Origin: Nitrococcus mobilis Nb-231 | Lineage (GTDB): Bacteria; Pseudomonadota; Gammaproteobacteria; Nitrococcales; Nitrococcaceae | Assembly (NCBI RefSeq): GCF_000153205.1 | Contig: NZ_CH672427.1 | Span: 3,402,596 to 3,466,595 of the forward strand | DNA: 64,000 nucleotides | Reading direction: 5' to 3' | Shown: positions 4,443 through 23,443 of the stretch, in pieces | Layout: the number at the start of each line of letters is the position of its first letter | Position numbering within the stretch: the first letter of the stretch is position 1 | Notes under the pieces: generated by a model | Databases searched by the model: none | The model's input: the letters and a program-made list of their open reading frames with translations, nothing else | Told to the model about the DNA's origin: nothing | Program-made: the position numbers and the translations under genes

Positions 4443-5411
4443 ATGCCTCGCCCGCTACGCATAGAGTTGGAAGATGGCTTCTACCATGTCATGAATCGCG
4501 GCCGCGGGCGGGCGCCAATCTTTCATAGGCCCGCCTACTACCAAACCTTCCTGGATACGCTGGAAGAAGCCCATCGACGCTTCGGCCTGGAGGTCCACGC
4601 CTACTGCCTGATGGGGAATCATTACCACCTGTTGGTGCGCACCCCGCGAGGCAATCTCAGCCGGTGCATGCGTCATGTCAACGGGGTCTATACGCAGCGC
4701 CACAATCGGCTGCGCAGGACCGACGGGCCGTTGTTCCGGGGCCGATTCAAGGCGATTTTGGTGGAGGCGGACGCCTACCTTCTGCAATTGACACGCTACG
4801 TACATCGAAACCCGATTGAGGCGCGGCGAGCGCTGGTGAATGAGCTGGCGGCGTACCCTTGGTCGAGCTACCCGGCTTACTTGGGCCAGGCTACGGCGCC
4901 GGAGTGGCTGTATCAGGAGTTTACCTACCGGTTGTTGAACAGCCGCGAGCGATATAGCGGTTACCGGCGATACGTAGAGGCGGGCGTTGATGAGGAGACG
5001 CAAGCGTTCTATCGGCGAGGCCGCTTATCTCCGGTGTATGGGAGCGACGCCTTCAAGGCGCGGATGCTTGCCTCGGGGGGTTGGGAGAACGCCAGCCCAG
5101 AGCGGCTACGGCGGCAGGTGTACAGACCGCCGGAGTTGAAGAACATTTTAAGCGTAGTTGCCGCACACCACGGCCTGCGGCAGGCGGAGCTGACTGAGGG
5201 CGGCCGCGGGAAGCGGAATCAGCCGCGAGTCGTGGCGATGTACTTATGCCAGGAAGTGGGTGGCCTATCCCTGCAAGTCATTGCAAAGGCATTTGGGGTG
5301 CGTAGCGAGAGCGGGGTGAGCCACCAAATTGGGAAGCTGCGGCGGGAGTTGGCAGACAATCCAGATCTTAGAAATGATCTAGAAATGCAAATACAATACC
5401 TGACCCGTTAG
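4443..5411 (+). CDS. REP-associated tyrosine transposase (RAYT, Y1 family)
   Basis: A 322-residue, apparently intact RAYT. The Y1/HUH transposase core spans roughly residues 1-150, with the HUH motif in AYCLMGNHYHLLVRTPRGNL. GPLFRGRFKA, LQLTRYVHRNPIEARRA and AYPWSSYPAYLG follow, all typical of TnpA-REP proteins. The C-terminal third looks like a DnaA/helix-turn-helix-type DNA-binding domain (VVAMYLCQEVGG, LQVIAKAFGVRSESGVSHQI, then GKLRREL), which marks the long-RAYT subgroup. Such enzymes nick single-stranded DNA at REP-type sequences. The gene is stand-alone, flanked by a near-identical inverted repeat whose right copy overlaps the last codons. It lies inside the island bracketed by IS ends. 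Confidence 0.9.
   Translation: MPRPLRIELEDGFYHVMNRGRGRAPIFHRPAYYQTFLDTLEEAHRRFGLEVHAYCLMGNHYHLLVRTPRGNLSRCMRHVNGVYTQRHNRLRRTDGPLFRGRFKAILVEADAYLLQLTRYVHRNPIEARRALVNELAAYPWSSYPAYLGQATAPEWLYQEFTYRLLNSRERYSGYRRYVEAGVDEETQAFYRRGRLSPVYGSDAFKARMLASGGWENASPERLRRQVYRPPELKNILSVVAAHHGLRQAELTEGGRGKRNQPRVVAMYLCQEVGGLSLQVIAKAFGVRSESGVSHQIGKLRRELADNPDLRNDLEMQIQYLTR
5389..5409. repeat. Right 21-bp inverted repeat flanking the RAYT gene
   Basis: AAATACAA, two variable bases, CCTGACCCGTT: the inverted partner of 4394-4414 with 19 of 21 positions matching. It overlaps the 3' end of the RAYT frame and so encodes its final residues (IQYLTR). Confidence 0.7.
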
Positions 5412-6554: not shown

Positions 6555-9500
6555 TCAACCCTCCTGTCGTAATAGCAAGGCCACCGGTAGGCACCGGAAA
6601 AGCTCGGTCGCGGCGAAGCAAGCACCGCTCTCTGCTTCATCGGCAGCGATGTACTCGCCGGTCAGCGCATTGAGATAGCGCCCGCCAGTCGGGGCTTCGA
6701 CCCAGGTATCTGCCCAAGGCGATTCGCCGCTTGCAAGTCCCTCGCTTGCGGCCGCAAGGCGGGCGAACCAGCGGCCGGTGGCGACCACGGCCACTTCCTC
6801 AGCATGCCCTCGTGCGAAGGCACAAATATGCGCGGCCCGCTGTCCTTGCGTGTCGAGCGCCTGATAATCGCCGTGCTGAAACAGCGCCCGATGGCGCTGC
6901 CGCAATAGCAAAGTTTGCCGGGTGAGGTAGAGCTTCAAGCGGCCGTCTTCGAGATTTTCCAACAGGCTCGCTAGCCGCTCGAGGGTATCGGCTGCGCCGA
7001 TTGTTATGGTGCGCACCTCGCCGAGCAGCCGCTCGCGGTATGCGTAGTCCACGCTTCGGCGATTATCGGGGTCCACCAGGCTGAAATCCCAGAGCTCGTT
7101 GCCCTGGTAGATATCCGGCACACCCGGCGAGGTCAGTTTGAGCAATGTCTGGGCGAGGCTATTGAGTAGCCCGTAGCGGGTAATCGGCTTGATGAAGGTA
7201 CGCAAGTCGCTGAGAAACGGATTGTCCTGCAGCGAGGACAGAACTGCGCGCACGAAGTGCACGGCCGCCTCCTCATAGGCCGGGTTCGGATTCAGCCATG
7301 AACTGTGCATCTTGGCTTCCCGGATAGCTTTCAGCAGGAAGGCTTCGATGCGCTCGCGAAACACCTCGAGCTCGGCATCGGTGCGCAGATCGAGTGGCCA
7401 GGCCCCGGCCAGCGTCTGGTAAAACAGGTATTGGTCATTGCGCGACGGTGCCGGCGCCGTATCAATCGTACGCCGCTTGGTTCGGTTCATGCGCCGCCAG
7501 CGCGCAAGCCGTCCGCGCCAAGCCGCCGGCAGCTCGGTGAGTACGTTGATGCGGGCGCGCACGTCCTCGCTGCGCTTGTTATCGTGTGTGGAGGTGGCGA
7601 GCAGGGCGTGAGGCCAGCGCCGGCCGTGCTCTTGATTGAAATGGTGAAAGGCGGCGACCGACACGCCGAAGCGGCGTGGATCGCCGCCTACCTCATTGAG
7701 CGAGATCAGGCGGTTGTAGATGTAGAACGCGGTATCCTCGAGCCCTTTGGCCATGACCGGCGCCGTGTACTGCTGGAGTTTAAGCGTGAACTGCAAGGCT
7801 TGTTGCCGTAGCGCCGTGGGCCACGACGACTCGCCTTCGAGCAGCATGAGCGCGCGAATGAAATCGAAGACTTCGGCACCGGTCGCAGGACTGCGTTTTT
7901 TTGCCTGGGCGATCGCCCAGTCGACATAGCGCCGATCCTCGTTGCTTACACCCGTTTCGCTGACATACGTTCGATAAACCGGGAAGCAGGCGACGATCTC
8001 GGTAAGCGCATCGCGCAGGCCGTTCAGAGTGTAGTCGCGGGTGCGCCAGTTGGCCTGAGCGATACGATCGAGCCGATTGGCCAACACGGTGAGTTCGCTT
8101 GAAAGATGAACTCGGATGATGAGTTTTTTGCAGTCATAGAGCAGCTCGTCGAACTCGAGCCGCTTGCCGATGAAGCGTTGATAAATGCGCTCGAAGGCCT
8201 GTTCGGCCGGTGCATACACGAACAAGGCGTTGACGGTCTGGGCGAAATCGTAGCCGGTGGTGCCGGCGACCGGCCAGTGCTCGGGCAGATGCTCGTAACC
8301 GGCCAGGATTTTCTCCACTACCAAGTAGGGCTGCAGCGTCCGTTGGTCAGTTTCGCCAAGTAGTGGTATTGCCTTTGTCTGCAGCCGTTGCGCGAGCGCC
8401 TGGCAGTAGCACAGCGGATCATAGAGGCCGTCCGGGTGGTCGATGCGCAGGCCGTTGACCTGGCCATTTTCGATCCACTCGAAGATGCGCTGGTGCGTGG
8501 CTTCGAATACTTCCGAGTTTTCCATGCGCAGAGCCGCCAAATCATTCACGTCGAAAAAGCGCCGGTAATTGATCTCATCGGCCGCCACCTGCCAATGGGC
8601 CAGTCGATAGGCCTGGCGCTCGAGCAAGCCATGCAGCGGCGCAAAGCTTTCCGGCTCGCCGCTGCGGCCGCAGAAAAACGCCACATTGCCAGCCAAGAAT
8701 TCGCCCACTGCGGGCGCATGCTGGCAAAGCCATGCGAGACGGCGTTTGCAGACCTCCTTTTCGCGTAGCCGTTCCTCCCGTGCTGCAGCATCCGTTGTCT
8801 CTCGCGAGGGCAGATGGCCGAAAGCGGTGATGATGCTCTGTAGCTCTGTGAGGCTCGCCTGGTCATCGCCGAGGCGCTGTGCCAAGCGCTCGAGGTGTAA
8901 TCCGAGGACATCAGGGTAGGCCGTGGGATCGATGGGGAAACGGTGTTCGTGGTAGGAGATGCTGAGCTCGCCCTGTTCGACTAGAAGTTGCAGACGCAGA
9001 TCACCCGCTTCGAGCGCGTCTCCGTAAGGCGCGCCGAGCACGGGCAGCAGCACCTTGCCGCGCAACTCCTCCTTGACTGGCCGCCAGTCGATGTCGAAGT
9101 ACTCGGCGTAGGGCGAAGCCCGGCCATTCTCCAGCACGTCCAGCCACCAGCGATTGTCGCTGCCCATCACGCCCATGTGATTCGGGACGATGTCGAGGAT
9201 CTGACCCATCCCGTGCCCGTGCAACGCCCCGACGAAGCGCTCGAAGTCTTGATCGTCGCCGAGCTCGGGATTGAGCGCCGTGTGGTCGATGATGTCGTAG
9301 CCGTGGGCGCTGCCCGAACGGGCCTTGAGGTAGGGTGAGGCGTAGCAATGGCTGATTCCGAGGTCGTGTAGGTAGGCCACCAATTGGGTGGCTTGGGCGA
9401 AGGTGAAATCACGATTGAACTGTAGACGGTAAGTGGCGGTCGGTACGGCCGAAGCCGCGTCCTTGCCGAGTGCCGCAGCCGATTGCGGCGCGGATGGGCG

Positions 9501-11690
9501 TTCGCCGCGCAGCGCTGCGCACAGCGCCACGAAGCGGGTATCTTGCGACCAGGCCTCGAGCGGAACCGGGAGCCGGCGGCGCCAGTTCGGATGCGCGTCG
9601 ACGGTACCGGGCAGATTGACCTGTTCCACGCAATCGAATACATCCTCGGGTTGCACCGCCATGAGACGGGCGGGCGTTCGCGCCATGAAGCGATGGATTG
9701 CGCGTATGAGCGGGTCGGTCATCTCCGGGAGTAGCACCGGGTCCACGTCGAGCCCCTCGGGGAGCAGATTTTCCCGCTGCAGCGCGAGCAGCAGCCGGGC
9801 CCGGTCTTGGGCGCGGCCGACGATCTGTTCCTCGCGGTGCTGCTCGGTTGGGAATAGGTTGAAGTGCTGGCGCAAGGCGAGGTCATGGCCGAGCCAGAAG
9901 CCGGCGAGTGTGGGAAGGTCGTGCGTGGTGATCGCCGCCAGAGCCTGCTCGGGGTAGTGCTCCGGGCGTTTGAACTCGCCATTGTCGTCGCGCTCGAAAT
10001 ATAAGATCCGGTAGGAGAGCACACCGAGCGGGCCGAGCGTGTCACGCAGGGTCTCCGGCAGAGTGCCCAAATCCTCGCCGATGACCAGGCAGCGGTTGCG
10101 TTGACTCTCGAGCGCCAGGATCCCGAGCAGATCGTCGACCGGATAATGCACGTAGGCACCCTCGGCCGAAGTGGCTCCCGGCGGCACCCAAAACAAGCGC
10201 ATGAGCGCCATTACATGATCGATGCGCAGTGCGCCGGCGTGGCGCATGTTCTGCCGGAGTAGCGCGATGAAGGACGCATAGGCCTGTTCGCGCAGGCGCT
10301 CGGGCACCAGGGGGGGGAGCCCCCAGTCCTGGCCCTTTAGATTGAAATCGTCCGGTGGCGCGCCGATACTGACGTCAGTCGCATACAAGGCCTGCTCGGA
10401 CCAGACGTCGGCGCCCGCCCGATCGACGCTGACCGCGAGGTCCTGATACAGCCCTACGCCCAGTCCCAACTCATCGGCACGCCGGCTGACCGCCGCCAAT
10501 TGGCGATCGGCTTGCCACTGCAAATATTGGAAAAACTCCACCCGCTCGCGTTGATCGAGGGCGAATTCGGCGACCGCGGGGGCGTTCGGGTCTCGATACG
10601 CTGCGGGCCAGGCGGGCCAGCCCCAGATGGCCGTATCCTGTTGTTGGAAGTGCGCCTGCAACGCCTGGTAGCGAGCGAAGTGTTCCAGAGTTTCGCCGCC
10701 GGCGGCTTGAAAGCTCCGAAAGGCTTGCCCACGTGTGCTCTCATGCAGCAAATGCCGGCGGCGGAAATCGGCATAGAGCCGCTCCAGAACCGCCACTTTG
10801 AGTGCCCAGATCGCCGGATAGTCGACGAGCGGGGCATTTTGTAACGCCGCGAGCTGAGCCTGGTATTCGGGCGCGGCGATGAGTTCGCGGGCGGCGGCGC
10901 ATTCGTCGAGTTCGGGAATGACTTCGATATCGAGATAGAGTACATTGTGGAACAGCCGGCTCGACGGGCTGTAGGGGCTGGCGTGAGCCGGATTGTGCGG
11001 AAAGAGACTGTGCAGCGGATTAACTCCGACGAAATCTGCTCCCACCGTGTGGCACAGCTCGATCATATGCCGTAGGTCAGTGAAATCGCCGATCCCAGCG
11101 TTACGGTGTGAGTGCACGGCATAGAGCTGTACGGCCAGTCCCCACCAGCGGTTTTCGGCGTCGAGCGCAGGCGGTCGGTAGCAAGTGGCCGGCGCGCTGA
11201 TCAGCGCCATTTCGGCCCGGTCCAACTCGTCTGCACGGGTGAGGTGCAAGCGATGGTAGCCGGGCTGTGGGGTCAGATCCGGGGCGAAGGCGTAGCGACG
11301 GCAGTGCTTGCCATCGACCTCGCGCTCGGCGAGCACCGCCAACGTTTCGGTACGAAGCTCGCCGCGGTGTTCTGAACCACCCTCAGTCTGCAGCCGCCAG
11401 TGCAAAGCAATTCCTTGCGGTTCGGCCGCGAGTGTAATGGGAATTTGCAGCGGTTGCGGGCCTAGGCGGTGAACCCAGACCGGCGGCAGCAGCCGGCGCC
11501 AGGGGCCGAGTTCGCAATCGGCAAGCGCCGCATGCAGCTGTGCCGGGTCCGCAATTGCAAGCCCCATGGCTGTGAGCAAGGCGCGTTTGGTTGCAGCCGA
11601 GATCGAGTGTGTTTGCCCCCACACATCAGTGTAGTCAGACGCGATGCCGCAGAGCTCCGCCAGCCGATCGAGTGCCTCTTGTTCGTGCAT
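6555..11690 (-). CDS. Fused 4-alpha-glucanotransferase / maltooligosyltrehalose synthase (MalQ-TreY)
   Basis: A 1711-residue fusion. Residues 1 to about 735 are a GH77 amylomaltase that disproportionates maltodextrins: nucleophile in ALRIDHVMAL (near 489), acid/base in VIGEDLGTL (near 538) and TTHDLPTLAGFW (near 588). From about residue 746 (VPTATYRLQFNRDFTF) it is a GH13 maltooligosyltrehalose synthase, which turns the reducing-end glucose into a trehalose unit: LRIDHPDGLYDP (near 1078), VVEKIL (near 1126) and STHDNKRSED (near 1368). A short Ala-rich linker (SAAALGKDAASA) joins them. Both active sites look complete. It is the last gene of the leftward operon and starts 9 bp after treZ with a GGAG site. 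In most bacteria malQ and treY are separate genes. Confidence 0.95.
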   Translation of the reverse strand: MHEQEALDRLAELCGIASDYTDVWGQTHSISAATKRALLTAMGLAIADPAQLHAALADCELGPWRRLLPPVWVHRLGPQPLQIPITLAAEPQGIALHWRLQTEGGSEHRGELRTETLAVLAEREVDGKHCRRYAFAPDLTPQPGYHRLHLTRADELDRAEMALISAPATCYRPPALDAENRWWGLAVQLYAVHSHRNAGIGDFTDLRHMIELCHTVGADFVGVNPLHSLFPHNPAHASPYSPSSRLFHNVLYLDIEVIPELDECAAARELIAAPEYQAQLAALQNAPLVDYPAIWALKVAVLERLYADFRRRHLLHESTRGQAFRSFQAAGGETLEHFARYQALQAHFQQQDTAIWGWPAWPAAYRDPNAPAVAEFALDQRERVEFFQYLQWQADRQLAAVSRRADELGLGVGLYQDLAVSVDRAGADVWSEQALYATDVSIGAPPDDFNLKGQDWGLPPLVPERLREQAYASFIALLRQNMRHAGALRIDHVMALMRLFWVPPGATSAEGAYVHYPVDDLLGILALESQRNRCLVIGEDLGTLPETLRDTLGPLGVLSYRILYFERDDNGEFKRPEHYPEQALAAITTHDLPTLAGFWLGHDLALRQHFNLFPTEQHREEQIVGRAQDRARLLLALQRENLLPEGLDVDPVLLPEMTDPLIRAIHRFMARTPARLMAVQPEDVFDCVEQVNLPGTVDAHPNWRRRLPVPLEAWSQDTRFVALCAALRGERPSAPQSAAALGKDAASAVPTATYRLQFNRDFTFAQATQLVAYLHDLGISHCYASPYLKARSGSAHGYDIIDHTALNPELGDDQDFERFVGALHGHGMGQILDIVPNHMGVMGSDNRWWLDVLENGRASPYAEYFDIDWRPVKEELRGKVLLPVLGAPYGDALEAGDLRLQLLVEQGELSISYHEHRFPIDPTAYPDVLGLHLERLAQRLGDDQASLTELQSIITAFGHLPSRETTDAAAREERLREKEVCKRRLAWLCQHAPAVGEFLAGNVAFFCGRSGEPESFAPLHGLLERQAYRLAHWQVAADEINYRRFFDVNDLAALRMENSEVFEATHQRIFEWIENGQVNGLRIDHPDGLYDPLCYCQALAQRLQTKAIPLLGETDQRTLQPYLVVEKILAGYEHLPEHWPVAGTTGYDFAQTVNALFVYAPAEQAFERIYQRFIGKRLEFDELLYDCKKLIIRVHLSSELTVLANRLDRIAQANWRTRDYTLNGLRDALTEIVACFPVYRTYVSETGVSNEDRRYVDWAIAQAKKRSPATGAEVFDFIRALMLLEGESSWPTALRQQALQFTLKLQQYTAPVMAKGLEDTAFYIYNRLISLNEVGGDPRRFGVSVAAFHHFNQEHGRRWPHALLATSTHDNKRSEDVRARINVLTELPAAWRGRLARWRRMNRTKRRTIDTAPAPSRNDQYLFYQTLAGAWPLDLRTDAELEVFRERIEAFLLKAIREAKMHSSWLNPNPAYEEAAVHFVRAVLSSLQDNPFLSDLRTFIKPITRYGLLNSLAQTLLKLTSPGVPDIYQGNELWDFSLVDPDNRRSVDYAYRERLLGEVRTITIGAADTLERLASLLENLEDGRLKLYLTRQTLLLRQRHRALFQHGDYQALDTQGQRAAHICAFARGHAEEVAVVATGRWFARLAAASEGLASGESPWADTWVEAPTGGRYLNALTGEYIAADEAESGACFAATELFRCLPVALLLRQEG

Positions 11691-11699
11691 ACGGCGCTC

Positions 11700-13532
11700 C
11701 TATGCGCCAGTCGGCGCGAACAGCCAAACGACTGACCAACCGGGAAGCTCGCTGCGTTGCAGCAACTCCTCGAGCCCGGCCTCACTGGCGTACAGCAGCT
11801 CACCGCCCGGAGTGTCGGCGAGCGCAACGCCTGCCTGCCCTAGATTGGCGAGCAATCCGAGTAAGGCGCCATCCGTTAATTGCCATTCGATACGCAGCGC
11901 GTGCTCGGCCAGCCGTTCGCTGCGGCGGGTGCGGGCGGGCAGCCGCGGCGCGATGATCTGTCGGCGTAGCGCGAGCAGTTCACGGTGTAACGCCAACGCG
12001 CCCGCATGGATGGGGTGAGTGAGCTCCGACCAATCGAGCTGTGCCAGCGCGAAAGTCGCGGCATCGTTCGGGTCGGGAATGCGCTCACGCGCGCCGGGGG
12101 CGCTGAACTCGGGGAAATGCGCGAATTCCCGGCGCCGCCCGTCGCGAACGGCTCCTGCCAGCTCCGCGCCGAAGTCGCAGAAAAACGGGAAAGGCGTTTG
12201 GCTATCCCATTCCTCTCCCATGAACAGCAACGGCGGCGCGGGAGCGAGCAGGAGCAGGATATGCGCCGCGCGCACGGCGCGGGGGCTTGCAAGCTGCGTG
12301 ATGCGTTCGCCGAGCGCCCGGTTGCCGATTTGGTCGTGATTTTGCAGAAAATTGACGAATGCGGTGGAAGGCAACCCGGCGCTCGGTTCGCCGCGCGCCG
12401 CGCCGCCCCGATAGGGCGAGGGCTCGCCCTGAAAGGCGAAGCCTTCGCTGAGGCAACGGACCAGCAACCGGATCGGGTACTGCGCATAATCGGCGTAATA
12501 GCCTTGCGATTCGCCGGTGAGTAGCGTATGCAGCGCATGGTGGCAATCATCGTTCCACTGCGCCGTATACCAGTGTGGGTGTTGCGCTTCACGCGCCAGA
12601 TAGCGTGTCGCGTTGTCATCGTTCTCGAGCACGAGATGCCGCGGGCGCTCGCGTGCCGGTCCGGCGCGGACGGCCTCGGCAAGCTCGATTAGGATATCCG
12701 GTTGGCCATCATCGTAGATAGCGTGCACGGCGTCGAGCCGCAGCCCATCCAGATTGAACTCCTCGAGCCAATAGAGCGCATTGTCGATGAAAAAGCGTCG
12801 AACCGCTTGGCTGTGCTCGCCGTCGAAATTGATTGCAGCACCCCACGGTGTGGTATGGCGGTGCGTAAAAAACGTCGGTGCGTAAGTATGCAGATAATTA
12901 CCCTCGGGGCCGAAGTGGTTGTAGACGACATCGAGCAGCACCATAAGCCCGTGCTGGTGCGCCGCCTGCACGAGCCGCTTGAGCGCTTCGGGCCGTCCGT
13001 ACCGGCTGTCGGGAGCAAAGGGCAACACCCCGTCGTAGCCCCAGTTGCGCGCGCCCGGGAAATCCGCTACCGGCATGAGCTCGAGTGCGGTGACGCCGAG
13101 CGCCGCCAGGTGATCGAGCCGCTCCCGCACGCCATCGAAGGTGCCGCTGGGGCTGAACGCGCCCACATGCAGCTCGTAAATCACCGCCTCCTGCCAGGGG
13201 CGTCCATGCCAATCGGCATCCTCCCAACAAAACGCGGTAGGATCGATCACTTCGCTTGGGCCGTGCACATCCTCGGGATTGAACCGCGCAGCGGGGTCGG
13301 GAACACGCTGGCCATCCGGCGCCACGAAACGATAGCGACTGCCCGCACGAGCCGCTGCGCTGGTGAGCTCGAACCAGCCACCCGCCCGGGGCTCCATTTC
13401 CAAAAGCTGTTCCTCGCCCGGGCCCTCGAGCGCCAAGCTGAGTCGCGTGAGCGCCGGCGCCCAAAGGCGGAAACGCACCCGGCCGTCAGTTTGGAGCTCG
13501 GCTCCAAACGGCATTGAATAGTGGCGATTCAT
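11700..13532 (-). CDS. treZ: Malto-oligosyltrehalose trehalohydrolase
   Basis: A 610-residue GH13 enzyme that releases trehalose from the maltooligosyltrehalose made by TreY. It begins [20 protein letters not shown] with a CBM48-like N-terminal domain ([19 protein letters not shown]). The catalytic barrel follows with [28 protein letters not shown], nucleophile [11 protein letters not shown] (near 264), acid/base LVLENDDN (near 302) and transition-state stabiliser NHDQIGN (near 399). Length is normal. It overlaps the glgX stop by 4 bp (ATGA) and precedes malQ-treY by 9 bp, so TreY and TreZ activities are co-expressed. Confidence 0.95.
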
Positions 13533-15664
13533 GCGTGTTTCCCCGGGTTGCGGGCGGTCAAAAGCACCAGTGCGCGAGCCTTGAGCGGATACGTCGAGGC
13601 GGCTTCATAATGGGGTATTGCAGCGCCGGATGTCGGGTCGGCAGTATCGATCAGCCGCTCCCAGGGGGCATCCCAAGCCGCAGCGGGAAGAGTAAATGGG
13701 ATAGGCCCGTGATGGGCATTGATGAGCAGGGCGAAGTCATCGTCGGTCAGACGCCGTCCCTGGGCGTCCTGCTCATCGAGTGCGCCGCCGGCGAGATAAA
13801 CACCCAGGCAGCGGGCAAACGTATGGTGCCATTCATGCTCGCTCATCTCGCAGCCGTTTGGGTTGAGCCAGGCGATGTCCCGTTTCCCAACGAAGAAGCT
13901 GCGCCGCCGGAACAGGGGATGGGCTCTGCGGATGCGGATAAGGTGCGCTGCGAAAGCGAGCAACTCCTCGTCCTCGCGGCGCAGCACCCAGTTCATCCAG
14001 GAGATCTCGTTGTCCTGGCAGTAGGCATTGTTGTTGCCGCGTTGAGTGCGTCCCATCTCGTCGCCGGCCAGCAGCATGGGCACACCCTGGGACAGCAGCA
14101 GCGTGGCCAGTAAGTTGCGCTTCTGACGGGCACGCAATGCTTTGATTACCGGGTCATCGCTCGGGCCTTCGGCGCCGCAGTTCCAGGACAGGTTGTGGTT
14201 TTCGCCGTCACGGTTGCCCTCGCCATTCGCCTCGTTGTGTTTTTCATTGTAGGAGACGAGATCTTCGAGCGTGAAGCCATCGTGTGCCGTGACGAAGTTG
14301 ATGCTGGCATACGGCCGGCGTCCGCTGCGCTGGTAGAGATCGCTCGAGCCGGTGAGCCGATAGGCGAGTTCGCCGATCAGCCCGCCTTCGCCTTTCCAAT
14401 AGGAGCGCACGGCATCGCGGTATTTGCCGTTCCACTCGGTCCAGCCGATCGGGAAGTTACCGACCTGGTAACCGCCTTCGCCGAGATCCCAAGGCTCGGC
14501 GATGAGCTTCACCTGAGAGAGCACGGGGTCTTGATGAATGATGTCGAAGAAGGCGCCGAGGAGGTCCACCTCGTGGAGCTCGCGGGCCAGGGCCGAGGCC
14601 AGATCGAAGCGGAAGCCATCGACGTGCATCTCCAGTACCCAGTAACGCAGACTGTCCATGATGAGCTGCAGCACCCGCGGGTGCATCATGTTCAGCGTAT
14701 TGCCGCAACCGGTGTAATCGATGTAATAGCGCGGATCCTCCGCCAGCCGATAATAGGCGACGTTGTCGATACCGCGAAAGCACAGCGTCGGCCCCAAATG
14801 GTTGCCCTCGGCGGTATGGTTGTAGACGACATCGAGAATGACCTCGATGCCCGCCGAGTGCAGGGTTTTGACCATGGTCTTAAATTCGCTCACCCCGCCG
14901 TTGGCCACGTAGCGCATGTCGGGGGCGAAGTAGCCGATCGAGTTGTAGCCCCAGTAGTTGTGCAGGCCTTGTTGGGCGAGATGGCGATCGTTGACGGCCG
15001 TGTGCACCGGCATGAGCTCTATCGCCGTTACTCCGAGACGTTGCAGATGCTCAATTACCGGCGCGGTGGCGAGCCCGGCGTAGGTGCCCCGCAGCCAGGG
15101 CGGCAGTTTCGGGTGGCGCGCCGTAAACCCCTTGACATGCAGCTCGTAGATAACCGTGTCATGCCAGGGGATCATTGGACGGTGGTCATCCTCCCAGGTG
15201 AAAGCCTGGTCGATCACCTGCGATTTAGGCATTCCATAGGCATTGTCTCGGCGGTCGTAGGAGAGATCCTCGCGGCTGCTCGTGATCCGGTAGCCGAAGT
15301 GGGCGTCGCTCCAACGCAAGGGGCCTACGATCGATTTGGCGTAGGGATCGAGCAGCAGCTTGTGGGGGTTGAATCGAGCGCCGCGCTGGGGATCGTAGGG
15401 TCCATGCACCCGATAACCGTAGAGCAGCCCGGGGCGCGCCTCCGGCAAGTAGCCGTGCCAGACCAAATCGGTCTGCTCCTTGAGGTCGACGCGCGCTACT
15501 TCGCGCCGTCCCTTTGCGTCGAACAGACACAGTTCGACCTTCTCGGCATGCTCGGAGAACAGGGCGAAGTTTACCCCTTCTCCATCCCAGGTTGCACCGA
15601 GTGGGTAGGATTTACCTGGCCAGACGCTGTTTATCAGTTTGTTCATCGAGGCGCTGCTATCCAT
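13529..15664 (-). CDS. glgX: Glycogen debranching enzyme GlgX
   Basis: A 711-residue isoamylase-type GH13 enzyme that hydrolyses alpha-1,6 branches and yields linear maltodextrins for MalQ-TreY. I start it at ATG 15664 ([20 protein letters not shown]) because GGAGA lies 6-7 nt upstream. The frame is open to ATG 15781, which would overlap treS by ATGA, but those 39 extra residues are not GlgX-like. CBM48 ([20 protein letters not shown]) is followed by the barrel: [39 protein letters not shown] (nucleophile, near 353), [16 protein letters not shown] (acid/base, near 390) and [15 protein letters not shown] (near 460). Normal length and complete motifs. Confidence 0.94.
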
Positions 15665-15777
15665 GAATTCTCCGCTTGCCGCGGCGTAAGTAAGACCGAC
15701 ATCAGTGTACGCCAACGGTTCCACATTGGACGTGCGGCGAGGGCGTGCAGGAAATAAGCAGGATGCCGCGTTCTTGT

Positions 15778-18700
15778 TCATCCACCGAAGTCGGCTTCAG
15801 GCTGATCCAGCAGCGCGCGGAGCCCGGCAACAGGAATCCCGACCCAGGCGGGTCGGTTGTCCAACTCATAGCGCAGTTCATAGAGCGCTTTTTCTATTGT
15901 AAACAAAGCAATGAGCGGCCAGGCGGCCGCGATCGACTCGGGGTGGATGCCGGCCTCCTGGCTGCCCTCGGCATATCCCGCGAGAAACGCCGTCGTGGCG
16001 CGACGTTCCCAATCCCGCGCGAAAGGCACCAACCGTTCACGGTCCGCCGGGCGTTCAGCCGTGACATGCTGTAGCGCCGAGTGCAGCGCATAGCTGAAAG
16101 AGCGCAACATGCCGGCCACGTCTTTCAGCGGTGAGTGTTTCTGGCGGCGTTCGGCAAGCGGACGAGCCGGTTCACCCTCGAAGTCGATGATGATGAAATC
16201 GTTTTCGACGACAAGCACCTGGCCGAGATGGTAATCACCGTGCAAGCGTGTCTTCAGGCCAGTGAACGCCGCCGGCGTGCTGCGCTCGATGCACTCGAGC
16301 AAGCGCTGCCGTGCGGCAATGAGTTGCTCGGCGGCGGTGCGCACCCCCTCAGGGAGGCGTTCGACTTCGTGCTCGAGTCGCTGCAACGTAGCCCGCGCTT
16401 GCGCGCGCACTGTTGTGCGCCAGTCGCCGAGGTCGCTGGGATGCACGGGTTCGGGATCGAAGGCGGGATCACCGGTGTGTCGGGCGAGGGCGCGATGCAA
16501 CTCACCGGTGCGCCGCCCGAGTGTGTGCAGCAGGGTCAGGTTGGCGGCGTGTAAGGCTTCAAGCTCAAGCTCTACTTCGGCGCTTGGTCGCAGCAGGGCG
16601 TCTTCGAGGAAGCGCTGCAGGTAGTCAACCCAATACGACCAGGCATCTCCTTGAGCAGGGACGTATTTCTGCAACAGGGCGAGCGTCGTCACAGTGCCGT
16701 CGTGGTTTTCGTGCTCGAGCGCGCCCAGCAAGGGCACGACGTTCGCGAACGGTGAGCGTTCGGTGAGGAAGCGACCCATCTCGAGCTCCGGATTGACGCC
16801 CGATTCGAGCCGTCGATAAGCCTTGAGGAAGAGTTCCGTTCCCAAAATGATGGCCGTATTACTCCCCTCGCTGGTCGGGCGCTCGATGGCGGCGTCGGGT
16901 GCAAGCTTGGCCAGTAGTTCCGGATACACGGCCGTCGAGGTGAACCGCAGCGTCATCCCGTTAGCTCGATGGCTCTGGTTGCGGCCCATTGCGCGGACCA
17001 CGGTTTGGCAGAAATGTCCATCGCGCAGCGCATCGTGGAGGATGCCCACACGGGATTGATGCCTGACACGCGCTAATGCGTAGGGTGATAGCTCACGCAG
17101 GTGTTCGTCGAGGGGGCCACCCCAAGCTGTTGCGAGCGGCAGGAAATACGTCTGCGCGGCTTGACCCGCCAAGTCGACCTGGATCCAGCTCAGCAGATAG
17201 TCCCGGCCACCTTCAGACCACGGCAGGTGCGCGACGAGTCCGACGCGTTCGAGGCGCTGGCCTTTCGCCGCAAACCAGCGCCGTACCGGAAGAAACGCCG
17301 GCAAAGCTTCGGTCAAAAAACGCTCGCGCATGCGCTCGGCTATGCTCTGGTGCGATGCGGCGACCTCGGCCGGGAAGAAGCTCTTCCAGCCTTCGAACAT
17401 CACCAGCACCGGCAACTCGTTTGGTGGCGGGCTGGCTTGATGCCAGGATGGGGCCTCGCCTGCAGCGGCGAGATGAAACCAGTAGAAGCCGTGGCCTGTG
17501 AGCGTGAGCAGATACGGCAGTTCGCCAATCGGTGGAAACGCTGTGCGACCCATCAATTCCACGGGAACACGACCCTTGAAGCGGGCGAGATCAAGCTCCA
17601 CCGGCTGGGCCGAGCGCGCCAGATTGGCTACGCAGAGGATGACTGAATCCTGATACGTACGTAGGTAGGCGATAATCTTGCGATTGCCGGGCTTGATGAA
17701 CTCCAGTCGCCCACGCCCGAACGCCTGGTACGCCTTGCGTACGGCAATGAGGCGCTTGGTCCAGTTGAGTAGCGAGCTGGGAGCGCGGCTCTGCGCCTCG
17801 ACATTGACCGCCTCGTAGCCGTACATGGGGTCCATGACGGGCGGCAAATAAAGCCGCTGCGGGTCGGCTTTGGAAAAACCGGCATTGCGATCGGGCGACC
17901 ACTGCATGGGTGTGCGCACGGCGTTGCGGTCACCGAGAAAAATGTTATCCCCCATGCCGATCTCATCGCCGTAGTAGATGATCGGCGAGCCCGGCATCGA
18001 CATGAGTAGGCTGTTCATCAGCTTGATCTTGTCGTTGTCGTTGTCCATAAGCGGTGCCAGGCGGCGCCGGATCCCCACATTCACGCGCATGCGCGGATCG
18101 CTTGCATACGCTTGGTACATGTAGTCGCGCTCCTCGTCGGTCACCATCTCGAGGGTGAGCTCATCGTGGTTACGCAGGAATATGGCCCATTGGCAGGTCT
18201 CAGGAATGCTTGGGGTTTGATCCATGATCTCGACGATGGGATGGCGATCCTCCTGGGCGATGGCCATGTACATCCGGGGCATCAGCGGGAAGTGGTAGGC
18301 CATGTGGCACTCGTCGCCGGCGCCGAAATAATCGCGCACGTCCTCGGGCCATTGATTGGCCTCGGCCAAAAATAGGCGGTTGCGGTAATGGGCATCGACG
18401 ACTGCGCGCATTTGCTTGACCACCGCGTGCGTCTCGGCCAAGTTCTCGTTATGGGAACCCTCGCGCACGCAGAGGTAGGGGATTGCGTCGAGGCGCACGC
18501 CGTCCACGCCCATATCGAGCCAGAAGCGCATCACTCGGGTAACCGCTCGGACTACCTGGGGGTTGTTGTGGTTCAAATCCGGCTGATGCGAGAAGAAGCG
18601 GTGCCAATAATAAGCCTGTGCCAGCGGATCCCAAGCCCAGTTCGAGCTCTCCGTGTCGGTGAAAATGATGCGCGTTTCGGGAAAGCGTTGATCGGTTTCG

Positions 18701-19122
18701 CTCCACAGATAGAAATCTCGCTTGGGCGAGTTAGGCGGCGCGCGCCGGGCGGCCTGGAACCAGGGGTGCTGATCGGAGGTGTGATTGATCACGAGCTCGG
18801 TGATGATGCGGATGCCGCGCCGGTGCGCCTCGCGCACGAAGTTTCGGAAATCGCGTCGACTCCCGTAGGCTGAATGAATATTGTGGTAGTCGGCGATATC
18901 GTAGCCATCGTCGCGCATGGGCGAGGGGTAGAAGGGCAGCAGCCAGATCGTGTTGGCGCCGAGATCTTGGATGTAGTCGAGCTTTGTGGTCAGACCTTGG
19001 AAATCGCCGACGCCGTCGTTGTTGCTGTCGAAGAAGGTTTTGACATGCAGATGGTAGATGATGGCGTCCTTGTACCAGACCGGATCATCTTCCAGCGAGG
19101 CGTTGCCCTTGCGTGCACTCAT
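15778..19122 (-). CDS. treS: Trehalose synthase fused to maltokinase (TreS-Mak/Pep2)
   Basis: A 1114-residue two-domain enzyme. Residues 1 to about 560 are TreS (GH13), interconverting trehalose and maltose: [20 protein letters not shown], nucleophile [11 protein letters not shown] (near 209), acid/base [11 protein letters not shown] (near 253) and [12 protein letters not shown] (near 318). Residues from about 610 form a maltokinase that makes maltose-1-phosphate. The kinase catalytic signature is [20 protein letters not shown] followed by [10 protein letters not shown] (near 965-985). I chose ATG 19122 ([19 protein letters not shown]), preceded by GGAGG. A GTG at 19167 overlaps the glgE stop (GTGA) and is also possible. 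The product feeds GlgE, encoded just upstream. TreS-maltokinase fusions are known in this pathway. Confidence 0.94.
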
Positions 19123-19163
19123 GCCGGTGCCACCTCCGTTCTGCTCGTCCTGCTGACTTGGGT

Positions 19164-21164
19164 TCACATGAAGTAGTCGAAATCATGTTCGGTGCGCACA
19201 TGTCGGCGTACTCGAAAGATATGGGCCGGCGCGCTGTGCGGGTCGAGCTCGACGTAGTTACGCGCGCCTTGCCAGAGGTAGCGGGCGTCGCTCAGCAGAT
19301 CGTGCACTTGATAAGGATGCTCGGGGAGGAGTTGCAGTGCTTCGAGCGGGAGCTCCACCCAGCCGGCTTGGGTATGATGCGGATCGACATTGACCACCAC
19401 TAAGATCACGTTATCCAGCGCATCGCAGTGCTTGCTGTAACAGACCAATGCCTCATTGTCGACGGGATGAAAGCGCAGACTCCAATCTTGTTGTAGCGCA
19501 GGGTTTTCACGCCGAATTTGGTTCACCCGCGTGATGAAGTGGGCAAGGCTGTCGGGACGCTCGAGCTCCCAGGCCCGGATTTCGTATTTCTCCGAGTCCA
19601 AATACTCTTCGCTACCGGGTTCGCGCGGTCGCGCTTCGCAGAGCTCGAAGGCCGGACCATAGATTCCGTAATTCGCTCCCAGCGTGGCGGCGAGTACGAG
19701 TCGGGTCATAAAAGCAGGTCGCCCGCCGACCTGCAGGTATTCGTTTAGAATGTCAGGCGTATTCGGCCACAGATTGGGCCGGAAGTATTCGCGCGAGGGT
19801 GTTTGCGTGAGCTCGGTGAAGTACTCCATGAGCTCCCATTTGTTGTTGCGCCAGGTGAAATACGTGTAGGACTGGGTGAAGCCGAGTTTTGCGAGCCGGT
19901 GCATCACTTTGGGGCGGGTAAACGCCTCCGCGAGAAAAATCACCTCGGGGTGTTGTGCTTTGACGTGCGTGATCAGCCACTCCCAGAACGGAAAAGGTTT
20001 AGTGTGGGGATTGTCGACCCGGAAAATCCGCACGCCTTGCTCGATCCAGAATAGGAACACGTCTTCGAGTTCATCCCAAAGTCCTTGCCAGTCTTCGCTT
20101 TCGAAGTTGAACGGGTAGATGTCCTGATATTTCTTGGGTGGGTTCTCCGCATATTGCACGGTGCCATCCGGACGCCACCGAAACCATTGTGGGGCCTGCT
20201 TGACATAGGGGTGATCCGGCGAGCATTGAAAGGCGATATCAAGCGCCACCTCGAGCCCCTGCTCCCGGGCGCGGCGTACCAAGTGACGGAAATCCTCCAG
20301 CGTGCCAAGCTGCGGATGCACGGCCTTGTGTCCGCCGGCCTCGGAGCCGATGGCCCAGGGGCTGCCGGGATCCTCGGCGCTGGCGTTCAGGGTGTTGTTA
20401 CGACCTTTGCGTGCGGTGGTACCGATCGGATGGATGGGTGGCAGGTAGAGCACGTCAAAGCCCATGGCCGCGATGTAGGGCAGGCGCTCGGCACAGCTGC
20501 GCAAGCTGCCGTGGGTGCCCGGCTCCTGCACACACGAGCGTGGAAAAAGTTCATACCAAGTGCTGAAGCGGGCATGGGCGACGTCGACTACGACCATAAG
20601 CTCGCGCTCATAGGTCGTTGCAAACATGCGATCGGGGGATTGCGCCATCAGTTGGGCGAGAGCGGGGTCAAGTGCCTGCGAGCGGCGCGTGAGCGGATCG
20701 CCTGCGGTGCGCAGTGCCTTTGCATAACGGTGCAGTTCTGCGGCATCCGGCGGCTCGTTTGCGCGGGCCGCCGCGGCCTCGATGAGTTCGGCGCCAATCA
20801 TTAGGGCGCTGGCAATATCCTCCGCTTTGGTGCGCTTTTTCAGCTCGGCGCACCAGGTACGAAAATGATCCACCCAGGCGGTGACGGTGTAACCGTACCG
20901 CCCGAGCTCGTCCACCGCAAACTCCCCGCTCCAGCGATCGTTGCCGAGCGGGCGCATCGCCACTTCCGTCCATGTTTCGGTGGCCGCTTTGCGGTAGCAG
21001 AGCACGCAGGCGAGCTGATCGTGGCCGTCGACGAAGGCGTCCGCCTCCACCACAACTTTCTCGCCGAGCGTGCGTTTGATCGGGAAACGACCCGCGTCTA
21101 CCGCCGGTGCAACGCCTTCGATCACAACGCGTTTGCGGCCGTCGCTCTGCGACGATGCAGCCAT
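19164..21164 (-). CDS. glgE: Alpha-1,4-glucan:maltose-1-phosphate maltosyltransferase GlgE
   Basis: A 666-residue GH13_3 enzyme that adds maltose from alpha-maltose-1-phosphate to growing alpha-1,4-glucan. The N-terminal domain contains RVVIEGVAPAVDAGRFPIKR. The barrel contains YELFPRS, DVLYLPPIHPIGTTARKGRN, DIAFQCSPDHPYV, nucleophile IFRVDNPHTKPFPFWEWLI (Asp near 382), acid/base VIFLAEAFTRPKVM (Glu near 409) and TPDILNEYLQVGG. The TARKG(R/K)NN motif separates GlgE from ordinary amylases. An AGAGGGGGATC ribosome site precedes ATG 21164. The stop overlaps the alternative GTG start of treS. No glgA or glgC is present nearby, so this may be the local route to glucan polymer. Confidence 0.95.
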   Translation of the reverse strand: MAASSQSDGRKRVVIEGVAPAVDAGRFPIKRTLGEKVVVEADAFVDGHDQLACVLCYRKAATETWTEVAMRPLGNDRWSGEFAVDELGRYGYTVTAWVDHFRTWCAELKKRTKAEDIASALMIGAELIEAAAARANEPPDAAELHRYAKALRTAGDPLTRRSQALDPALAQLMAQSPDRMFATTYERELMVVVDVAHARFSTWYELFPRSCVQEPGTHGSLRSCAERLPYIAAMGFDVLYLPPIHPIGTTARKGRNNTLNASAEDPGSPWAIGSEAGGHKAVHPQLGTLEDFRHLVRRAREQGLEVALDIAFQCSPDHPYVKQAPQWFRWRPDGTVQYAENPPKKYQDIYPFNFESEDWQGLWDELEDVFLFWIEQGVRIFRVDNPHTKPFPFWEWLITHVKAQHPEVIFLAEAFTRPKVMHRLAKLGFTQSYTYFTWRNNKWELMEYFTELTQTPSREYFRPNLWPNTPDILNEYLQVGGRPAFMTRLVLAATLGANYGIYGPAFELCEARPREPGSEEYLDSEKYEIRAWELERPDSLAHFITRVNQIRRENPALQQDWSLRFHPVDNEALVCYSKHCDALDNVILVVVNVDPHHTQAGWVELPLEALQLLPEHPYQVHDLLSDARYLWQGARNYVELDPHSAPAHIFRVRRHVRTEHDFDYFM

Positions 21165-21218: not shown

Positions 21219-23162
21219 TTAGCGATCGACTGGCTTCAGGTAAAGCACACCGAGCGGCGGCAGAGTCAACGCCAACGAGTGATAGCGGCCATGCTGCGGT
21301 ATGGGAGCGGCCTCGAGGCGACCGAAGTTACCTTGCCCACTGCCGGCATAGAGTTCGGCGTCGCTGTTGAGCAGCTCCTGCCAGGCGCCACCGCACGGCA
21401 CGCCTATGCGATAGTTGGTCCGCTCCACGGGAGTGAAGTTGCAAACCACCAGCAGGACTTGCTCAGGGTCGCGGCCGCGGCGCAAGAAACTGATGATGCT
21501 CTTCTCCCAATCGTGGGCATCGACCCATTCGAACCCATCGGCGGCGAAGTCGATTTCATGCAACGCGCGCTCTGCCCGATAGCAGCGGTTCAAATCCTGT
21601 AACCAGCGTTGCAGCCCCTGTGGAAATGCGTGTTCGAGTCGATGCCAGTCGAGGCTTGCATCGTGGTTCCACTCGCCCCATTGACCGAGCTCGCCCCCCA
21701 TGAACAAGAGCTTTTTGCCAGGATGGGCCCACATATAACCATAGAGCAAGCGCAGATTAGCGAACTTTTGCCACTCGTCACCCGGCATCCTGTCGAGCAG
21801 TGAGCCCTTGCCGTGTACGACCTCGTCATGGGAGAAAGGAAGCACGAAGTTCTCGTTGAACGCGTACCACAGGCTGAAGGTGAGCTCGTTATGATGGTGT
21901 TTGCGGTAAACGGGGTCTTGCGTGAAATAACGCAAGGTGTCGTGCATCCAGCCCATGTTCCACTTCATGCCGAAGCCGAGCCCGCCCAGGTAGATAGGCC
22001 GTGAGACCATGGGCCAGGCCGTGGATTCCTCGGCGATGATCTGCACATCGGGGTGATCCCGATAGGCGGCTTCATTGAGGCTGCGCAGCATGGCGATGGC
22101 GTCCAGGTTCTCGTTGCCGCCGTGCTCGTTTGGAATCCACTCGCCGGGCTTGCGTCCATAGTCGAGGTAGAGCATGGAGGCAACCGCATCCACTCGCAGC
22201 CCGTCGAGATGGTAGCGCTCGAGCCAGTGCAGCGCGCTGCTGACGAGGAATGAGCGCACCTCATGCCGACCGTAGTTGAAAATGTAGCTCTTCCACTCTG
22301 GGTGAAAGCCTTTTTTTGGATCGGCATGCTCGAATAGATAGGTGCCGTCGAAGTAAGCCAGGCCGTGGCCGTCACCGGGAAAATGAGAGGGTACCCAGTC
22401 GAGGATAACGCCGATGCCGTTGCGATGGAGGTAATCGACGAAGTACATGAAGTCTTCGGGCGTGCCGTAACGCGCCGTCGGTGCGAAATAGCCGACGACT
22501 TGATAGCCCCAGGAGCCGTAGAAAGGGTGCTCCATGATCGGCAGGATCTCGACGTGAGTAAAGCCCGTCTCCAGGACGTGAGCGGCGAGCGCTGGTGCGA
22601 TTTCGCGGTAGTTGAGCGGGCGGTTGTCTTCTTCCGGCACCCGGCGCCAGGAGCCGAGATGTACTTCATAGATGGAGATCGGCGCATCAAGGGCGTTGGC
22701 ACGCTGGCGCCGCTTCATCCACTCCGCGTCTTGCCAAGCATAACGTGGCTGCCAGATTCGCGAGGAAGTCCCAGGCGGCATTTCCCAGTAGCACGCGAAG
22801 GGGTCACCTTTGTCGGCTCGATAACGATGCCAACCGGATTCGATGTGATATTTATACAACGCGCCTTGGCCGACGCCGGCGATGAAGCCTTCCCAGATCC
22901 CGGATTGATCGTCCCGCGGGGCGAGTTCATGGACATCGGGCTGCCAGCCGTTGAACTCGCCGATGACGGAGACCTGTTCGGCATTGGGCGCCCAGACAGC
23001 GAAGTAGGTTCCTTCGGTGCCCTCCGAGGTCATGGGATGGGCACCCAGCTTCTCGTGCAGCCTGAAGTGTGTGCCTTGCTTGAAGAGATAGACGTCGTGG
23101 TCGGTCAGCCGGCTGACGTCATGGCGAATCGGCGCGCTGTCACTGCAAATGAATGAAGTCAT
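21219..23162 (-). CDS. glgB: 1,4-alpha-glucan branching enzyme GlgB
   Basis: A 647-residue GH13 enzyme that introduces alpha-1,6 branches, first gene of the leftward operon. I start it at ATG 23162 (MTSFICSDSAPIRHDVSRL), with AAGAGG upstream. The CBM48 module (GTYFAVWAPNAEQVSVIGEF) begins near residue 60, so this is the short form without the N1 domain found in E. coli GlgB. Catalytic motifs: DGLRVDAVASMLYLDYGR (near 323), IIAEESTAWPMVSRP (near 376) and LPFSHDEVVHGKGSLL (near 449), with HFPGDGHGLAYFDGTYLFEH ahead of them. A 54-bp gap containing the palindrome GCTAACCGGTTAGC separates its stop from glgE. Confidence 0.95.
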   Translation of the reverse strand: MTSFICSDSAPIRHDVSRLTDHDVYLFKQGTHFRLHEKLGAHPMTSEGTEGTYFAVWAPNAEQVSVIGEFNGWQPDVHELAPRDDQSGIWEGFIAGVGQGALYKYHIESGWHRYRADKGDPFACYWEMPPGTSSRIWQPRYAWQDAEWMKRRQRANALDAPISIYEVHLGSWRRVPEEDNRPLNYREIAPALAAHVLETGFTHVEILPIMEHPFYGSWGYQVVGYFAPTARYGTPEDFMYFVDYLHRNGIGVILDWVPSHFPGDGHGLAYFDGTYLFEHADPKKGFHPEWKSYIFNYGRHEVRSFLVSSALHWLERYHLDGLRVDAVASMLYLDYGRKPGEWIPNEHGGNENLDAIAMLRSLNEAAYRDHPDVQIIAEESTAWPMVSRPIYLGGLGFGMKWNMGWMHDTLRYFTQDPVYRKHHHNELTFSLWYAFNENFVLPFSHDEVVHGKGSLLDRMPGDEWQKFANLRLLYGYMWAHPGKKLLFMGGELGQWGEWNHDASLDWHRLEHAFPQGLQRWLQDLNRCYRAERALHEIDFAADGFEWVDAHDWEKSIISFLRRGRDPEQVLLVVCNFTPVERTNYRIGVPCGGAWQELLNSDAELYAGSGQGNFGRLEAAPIPQHGRYHSLALTLPPLGVLYLKPVDR

Positions 23163-23443
23163 AATGAAAACGTGTAACGCCTCTTTTGTTACTGTCAAGC
23201 CAAAGCGCGACGCCGTGTGGACCGGCTCTAGTTTTTTCCGTCAATTCATGGCCGCGCCTGCGCTGGAAACTACGATTAGCCGCTTTCTTGTCCTTCCGGC
23301 GCAGGCCGGAATCCAGTTGAACAAGATGGACCTTAGTATGCGCCGGGATGGATGAATAGATCAGACTTCCGGAGTAGGGCCAGCCAGGCTGGATAACAGG
23401 ACTCGACTCAAGCGCGCCCGACGATTGAACAGCAGATCTTAGC
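23163..23443. promoter_or_regulatory. Divergent control region with a REP-like hairpin
   Basis: 280 bp between glgB (leftward) and a methyltransferase gene (rightward). It must hold the promoter of the seven-activity glucan operon, but I cannot pick convincing -35/-10 boxes. Around 23295-23315, TTCCGGCGCAGGCCGGAA forms a short hairpin. It resembles the widespread extragenic family whose members read CCGGCG...GCCGGAATCCAG. Confidence 0.45.

Follow-up and report, generated by a model that had tools for sequence, protein, structure and literature searches.

The locus considered here, in a window of 64,000 nucleotides analyzed at full length, appears to encode a 4-alpha-glucanotransferase (MalQ) and a maltooligosyltrehalose synthase (TreY) as a single chain, and thus raises the question of whether the two enzymes are truly joined and, if so, what the fusion does. 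The gene, malQ-treY (positions 6555 to 11690), is one open frame of 1711 amino acids on the minus strand, running from an ATG start codon at 11690 to a stop codon at 6555-6557 without an internal stop; a preliminary description had reported a single-chain fusion of this length without giving the strand, and both modules are indeed found by Pfam and NCBIfam. The product matches the NCBIfam model NF011077 (PRK14507.1) with 2282.6 bits against a cut-off of 2148, residues 3-1710 of the protein aligning with positions 4-1692 of the 1693 in the model. Membership in the GlgX-MalQ family PRK14510 was also considered and rejected, as that model gives 516.8 bits against a cut-off of 2511 and aligns with the MalQ part alone. 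That a sequencing or assembly error fused two genes is vanishingly improbable and is excluded by the independent relatives: two close ones (G002 and G004) have the identical single-frame layout at 88-93% protein identity, dN/dS in close-relative comparisons is 0.10-0.18 in both the MalQ and the TreY half, and one frame is found not only in these independent assemblies but in 42 distinct loci. The nearest named relatives, among them a metagenome-assembled genome (MAG) labelled Nitrococcus mobilis, are 88-92% identical in both halves. The window therefore probably derives from a nitrite oxidiser resembling Nitrococcus. Purifying selection acts on the two halves alike, and the protein is, as judged by its sequence, genuine and intact, and belongs to a known fusion family.

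The MalQ module (residues 1-731; positions 9498 to 11690, minus strand) is of the E. coli type, with a MalQ_N beta-sandwich (Pfam, residues 68-167) followed by Glyco_hydro_77 (PF02446, residues 187-708; E=1e-121, 407 bits, above the Pfam cut-off), and TIGR00217 (malQ) scores 504.6 bits on the product against a cut-off of 205.65. Residues 3-727 match E. coli MalQ (4s3p) in phmmer, and D491 (RIDHVMAL), E539 (GEDLG) and D591 (THDLPT) align with 4s3p residues 448, 496 and 548, which we take to be catalytic; the half therefore belongs to GH77 both by its score over the Pfam cut-off and by its Asp/Glu/Asp triad. The match to E. coli MalQ (4s3p/4s3q/4s3r) is full-length with the catalytic residues conserved, although the E. 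coli enzyme stands alone, with no TreY attached. The TreY module (residues 749-1711; positions 6558 to 9446, minus strand), in which the Pfam Alpha-amylase/GH13 domain begins at residue 769, scores 1013.4 bits with TIGR02401 (treY; cut-off 498.65), and its D1084 (RIDHPDG), E1126 (VVEKIL) and D1370 (STHDNK) align by phmmer with residues 228, 255 and 443 of the solved TreY 1iv8, presumably the catalytic residues of that enzyme; it is accordingly a GH13 TreY by score and by its own Asp/Glu/Asp triad. The solved TreY (MTSase) structures 1iv8, 6lcu and 5zcr match this half throughout, including the conserved triad, but they are stand-alone proteins of about 700-770 aa, whereas the TreY module in the window is longer (963 aa). 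All six catalytic residues thus align with 4s3p and 1iv8, which agrees with the preliminary description of both catalytic modules as complete, and each motif that it quoted is present once, in its proper module; by sequence, both modules are catalytically competent.

Between the modules lies the short Ala-rich linker described earlier (residues 732-748, ~17 residues; positions 9447 to 9497, minus strand), which comparison of fused proteins shows to be Ala/Ser/Gly-rich and unconserved. Its length in other fused proteins ranges from roughly a dozen to more than 80 residues, its sequence differs as well, and mean conservation is 0.27 in the linker vs 0.58 in GH77 and 0.55 in TreY. Because the linker varies in length and is unconserved in sequence, it would suit a tether, presumably a flexible one, better than a shaped conduit.

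The fused gene is the last of a tight operon, glgB-glgE-treS/mak-glgX-treZ-malQ/treY, with five pathway genes upstream on the same (minus) strand. Nearest is treZ, for maltooligosyltrehalose trehalohydrolase (11700 to 13532; TIGR02402, 713 bits, cut-off 538.8), which ends 9 bases before the malQ-treY start and overlaps by 4 bases with glgX, for glycogen debranching (13529 to 15781; TIGR02100, 1078 bits, cut-off 640.9). Further 4-base overlaps join glgX to a treS-mak fusion for trehalose synthase and maltokinase (15778 to 19167; TIGR02456 and TIGR02457 over cut-off) and treS-mak to glgE, for maltose-1-phosphate maltosyltransferase (19164 to 21164; Pfam GlgE_dom_N_S and GLGE_C over cut-off). A gap of 54 bases separates glgE from the gene for a probable branching enzyme, glgB (21219 to 23198, start codon uncertain), so named for its position and its domain architecture (Pfam CBM_48, alpha-amylase and alpha-amylase C-terminal domain). 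Elsewhere in the genome are one glycogen phosphorylase (glgP), a glycogen synthase-type protein (glgA) and two OtsA-type (GT20) genes; the MalQ half of the fusion is the only GH77 in the genome, so any MalQ activity that the cell needs depends on malQ-treY. The window also holds, at 4443-5411 on the plus strand, a 322-aa open reading frame whose product has IS200-like (Y1) transposase and DnaA C-terminal helix-turn-helix domains. Pseudomonas aeruginosa PAO1 encodes the same enzymes in the same order as treZ-malQ-treY (PA2164-PA2162), and they have been studied there by deletion and in part biochemically (PMC8084333); in that species, however, malQ is not fused to treY, the genes of the GlgE route lie in a second operon and glgA is placed elsewhere, whereas in the window the GlgE-pathway genes and malQ-treY make up one run.

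Separate, adjacent genes had been supposed to be the norm for these enzymes, and the fusion, by implication, rare. Both suppositions are contradicted by the family model and by genome surveys. NF011077 (PRK14507.1) is a curated equivalog of 1693 positions with exactly the MalQ-TreY architecture, having the same two modules, order and length as the window protein and no notable difference from it; its name, malto-oligosyltrehalose synthase, covers the TreY function alone and so hides the MalQ half. Searches of relatives, of the class, of 84,980 species genomes and then of one methanotroph family gave fusions of the same order in 42 distinct loci (39 one-frame loci, two of them near-duplicates, plus five added from the methanotroph family), carried by nitrite and ammonia oxidisers, Acidithiobacillus, Thiobacillus, Burkholderiales, 'delta'-proteobacteria and methanotrophs. 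In an evenly drawn sample of the class, 32 genomes have a TreY, which is fused in ~10 of them (in one the locus is truncated at a contig end) and unfused in 22, with malQ immediately beside treY in 5 of the latter; TreY was called here at E <= 1e-100, a threshold that more divergent TreYs would escape. The MalQ-TreY fusion is therefore common in proteobacteria. Fusions of the same order are thus already described as far as databases go (NF011077), but no experimental description of the MalQ-TreY fusion or of its purpose was found in a search of open-licence PMC papers.

A single fusion origin followed by simple inheritance is not supported by the TreY trees. On a tree of 109 rows the fused state has to change 14 times, well-supported branches imposing 8 of these changes, and on a smaller maximum-likelihood tree it has to change 10 times, of which 4 are forced. 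Because fused and unfused TreYs are interleaved on both trees, fusion, splitting or transfer took place repeatedly; the separate adjacent malQ-treY pairs with short overlaps that occur in other genomes are likely precursors or split forms. GlgX-MalQ (PRK14510), MalQ-GlgB (Neisseria suica, PMC11046441) and TreS-Mak are likewise fusions, with different partners, and show that the fusing of neighbouring enzymes is common in glycogen operons. Another kind of TreY fusion also turned up within the class, a 1597-aa frame at L206 (2445-7238, minus strand) that joins a CBM48/isoamylase-type (GlgX-like) module to TreY and lies beside a TreZ-like gene. A 1376-aa frame at L207 (1649-5779, minus strand) links a GH77 domain to a branching enzyme resembling GlgB, an arrangement already reported for N. 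suica. Directly after fused malQ-treY, at L208 (3800-6028, minus strand) and L067 (15136-17199, plus strand), lies the gene for a GH77-like but divergent protein of about 690-740 aa, in which RIDH, CEVLST and GNHD are kept where the catalytic positions align.

Of the 37 fusions aligned, 34 have an intact GH77 triad. Degeneracy was first seen in three methanotroph proteins, and a survey of their family gave eight fused proteins (L165-L172; also L081, L084, L089), all of which lack an intact GH77 triad. In the alignment all eight have His, Arg or Gln in place of the nucleophile Asp, and Thr, Gly, Ser or Asp in place of the acid Glu, and the THDLPT motif is altered throughout. At the third position L165, L166, L168 and L169 still align an Asp (GIDEPP or AADEPP), and the remaining four have Ser, Tyr or Gly there, so that two of three residues are lost in four proteins and all three in four. 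Every one of the eight has an intact TreY triad. The eight MalQ halves group in a single clade (support 100) that lies within the fused MalQs, and catalysis was therefore most likely lost after fusion, once. The degenerate GH77 domain is constrained, though less so than TreY: its dN/dS in Methylocaldum-like pairs (0.15-0.19) is roughly double the TreY value, and two further pairs of the clade give 0.27 and 0.38. The predicted structure of one such domain (pLDDT 91.7) has a TM-score of 0.88-0.89 to 4s3q/4s3r. All eight genomes encode a separate GH77 of about 500-590 aa, and the RIDH and AE[DN]LG motifs are kept in all four stand-alone GH77s that were inspected individually, three of which belong to these genomes. 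By comparison, of the 22 genomes whose fused GH77 is intact, 7 have a second GH77 and 15 lack one; as the methanotrophs are one clade, this contrast amounts to one event and not to a statistic. The genome of L081 is titled Methyloversatilis universalis, and the TreY of its fusion is 88% identical to that of Methylocaldum sp. 14B; the name or binning of this MAG may be wrong.

These observations bear on what the fusion does. Very probably the window protein acts on alpha-glucans with both of its halves, as a bifunctional member of the NF011077/PRK14507 family, and arose when adjacent malQ and treY in a treZ-malQ-treY operon merged into one frame. Linear chains would come from GlgX; the MalQ half would move glucose units among these maltodextrins, and the TreY half would convert the reducing-end bond of the longer chains to an alpha,alpha-1,1 bond, after which TreZ, encoded just upstream, would free trehalose. 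TreS/Mak, GlgE and GlgB would then pass trehalose or maltose to branched glucan. We infer both enzyme activities and any kinetic benefit of fusion; the loose linker would most likely provide equal amounts of the two enzymes and hold both on one glucan pool, rather than form a tunnel. A stronger version, in which MalQ extends short leftovers such as maltotriose and passes its products straight to TreY, giving more trehalose than the free enzymes, fits the chemistry, as TreY-TreZ leaves short leftovers that MalQ is able to re-elongate, and it fits the many genomes in which the two modules are fused or adjacent. Maltodextrins diffuse freely, however, and the linker is unconserved. Moreover, when malQ was deleted in P. 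aeruginosa, a species with separate malQ and treY genes, trehalose went up (0.13 to 0.32%) and maltose-1-phosphate went down (0.30 to 0.22%), from which the authors concluded that MalQ diverts glucan to maltose (PMC8084333); a GlgE route able to use such maltose is also encoded in the window. This result runs counter to the simple view of MalQ as a feeder of TreY, although the balance may shift with conditions and with the fusion itself. Channelling and maltotriose rescue are thus plausible, but the P. aeruginosa deletion and the eight methanotroph fusions whose GH77 halves have lost catalytic residues weaken them as a general rule, and direct transfer with a gain in trehalose is quite unlikely to be what the fusion is for.

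Since the methanotroph members keep a MalQ half without its catalytic residues, the fusion can be retained without MalQ catalysis as the reason. The half could then serve chiefly as a glucan-binding or stabilising domain for TreY, its own catalysis being secondary and losable where another MalQ exists; the MalQ-like predicted fold, the low dN/dS of the Methylocaldum-like pairs and the stand-alone GH77 of every methanotroph genome point this way. Such a role seems rather doubtful as the main one, because the triad is intact in the window protein and in most other fusions, which argues for catalysis, because the fused GH77 is often the only one in its genome, because the methanotroph loss is one event in one clade, and because the higher dN/dS of the other degenerate pairs would permit slow decay. 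The bifunctional reading is accordingly kept for the window protein; to it may be added, tentatively, a second and non-catalytic role of the MalQ half (glucan binding, or stabilising and positioning TreY), possibly sufficient to preserve the half after catalysis was lost, as in the one methanotroph family, with both roles coexisting in the window protein.

The fusion in the window is therefore real, intact and ordinary for its kind, and belongs to a widespread family for which the search of open-licence PMC papers found no experimental study. The most interesting result, though it lies outside the window, is the degenerate MalQ half of the methanotrophs. TIGR00217 still gives 328.5 bits on such a domain, above its cut-off of 205.65, and automatic annotation thus labels as 4-alpha-glucanotransferase a domain that is probably inactive. 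These variants offer a natural test of the role of a fused partner after its catalysis is gone.
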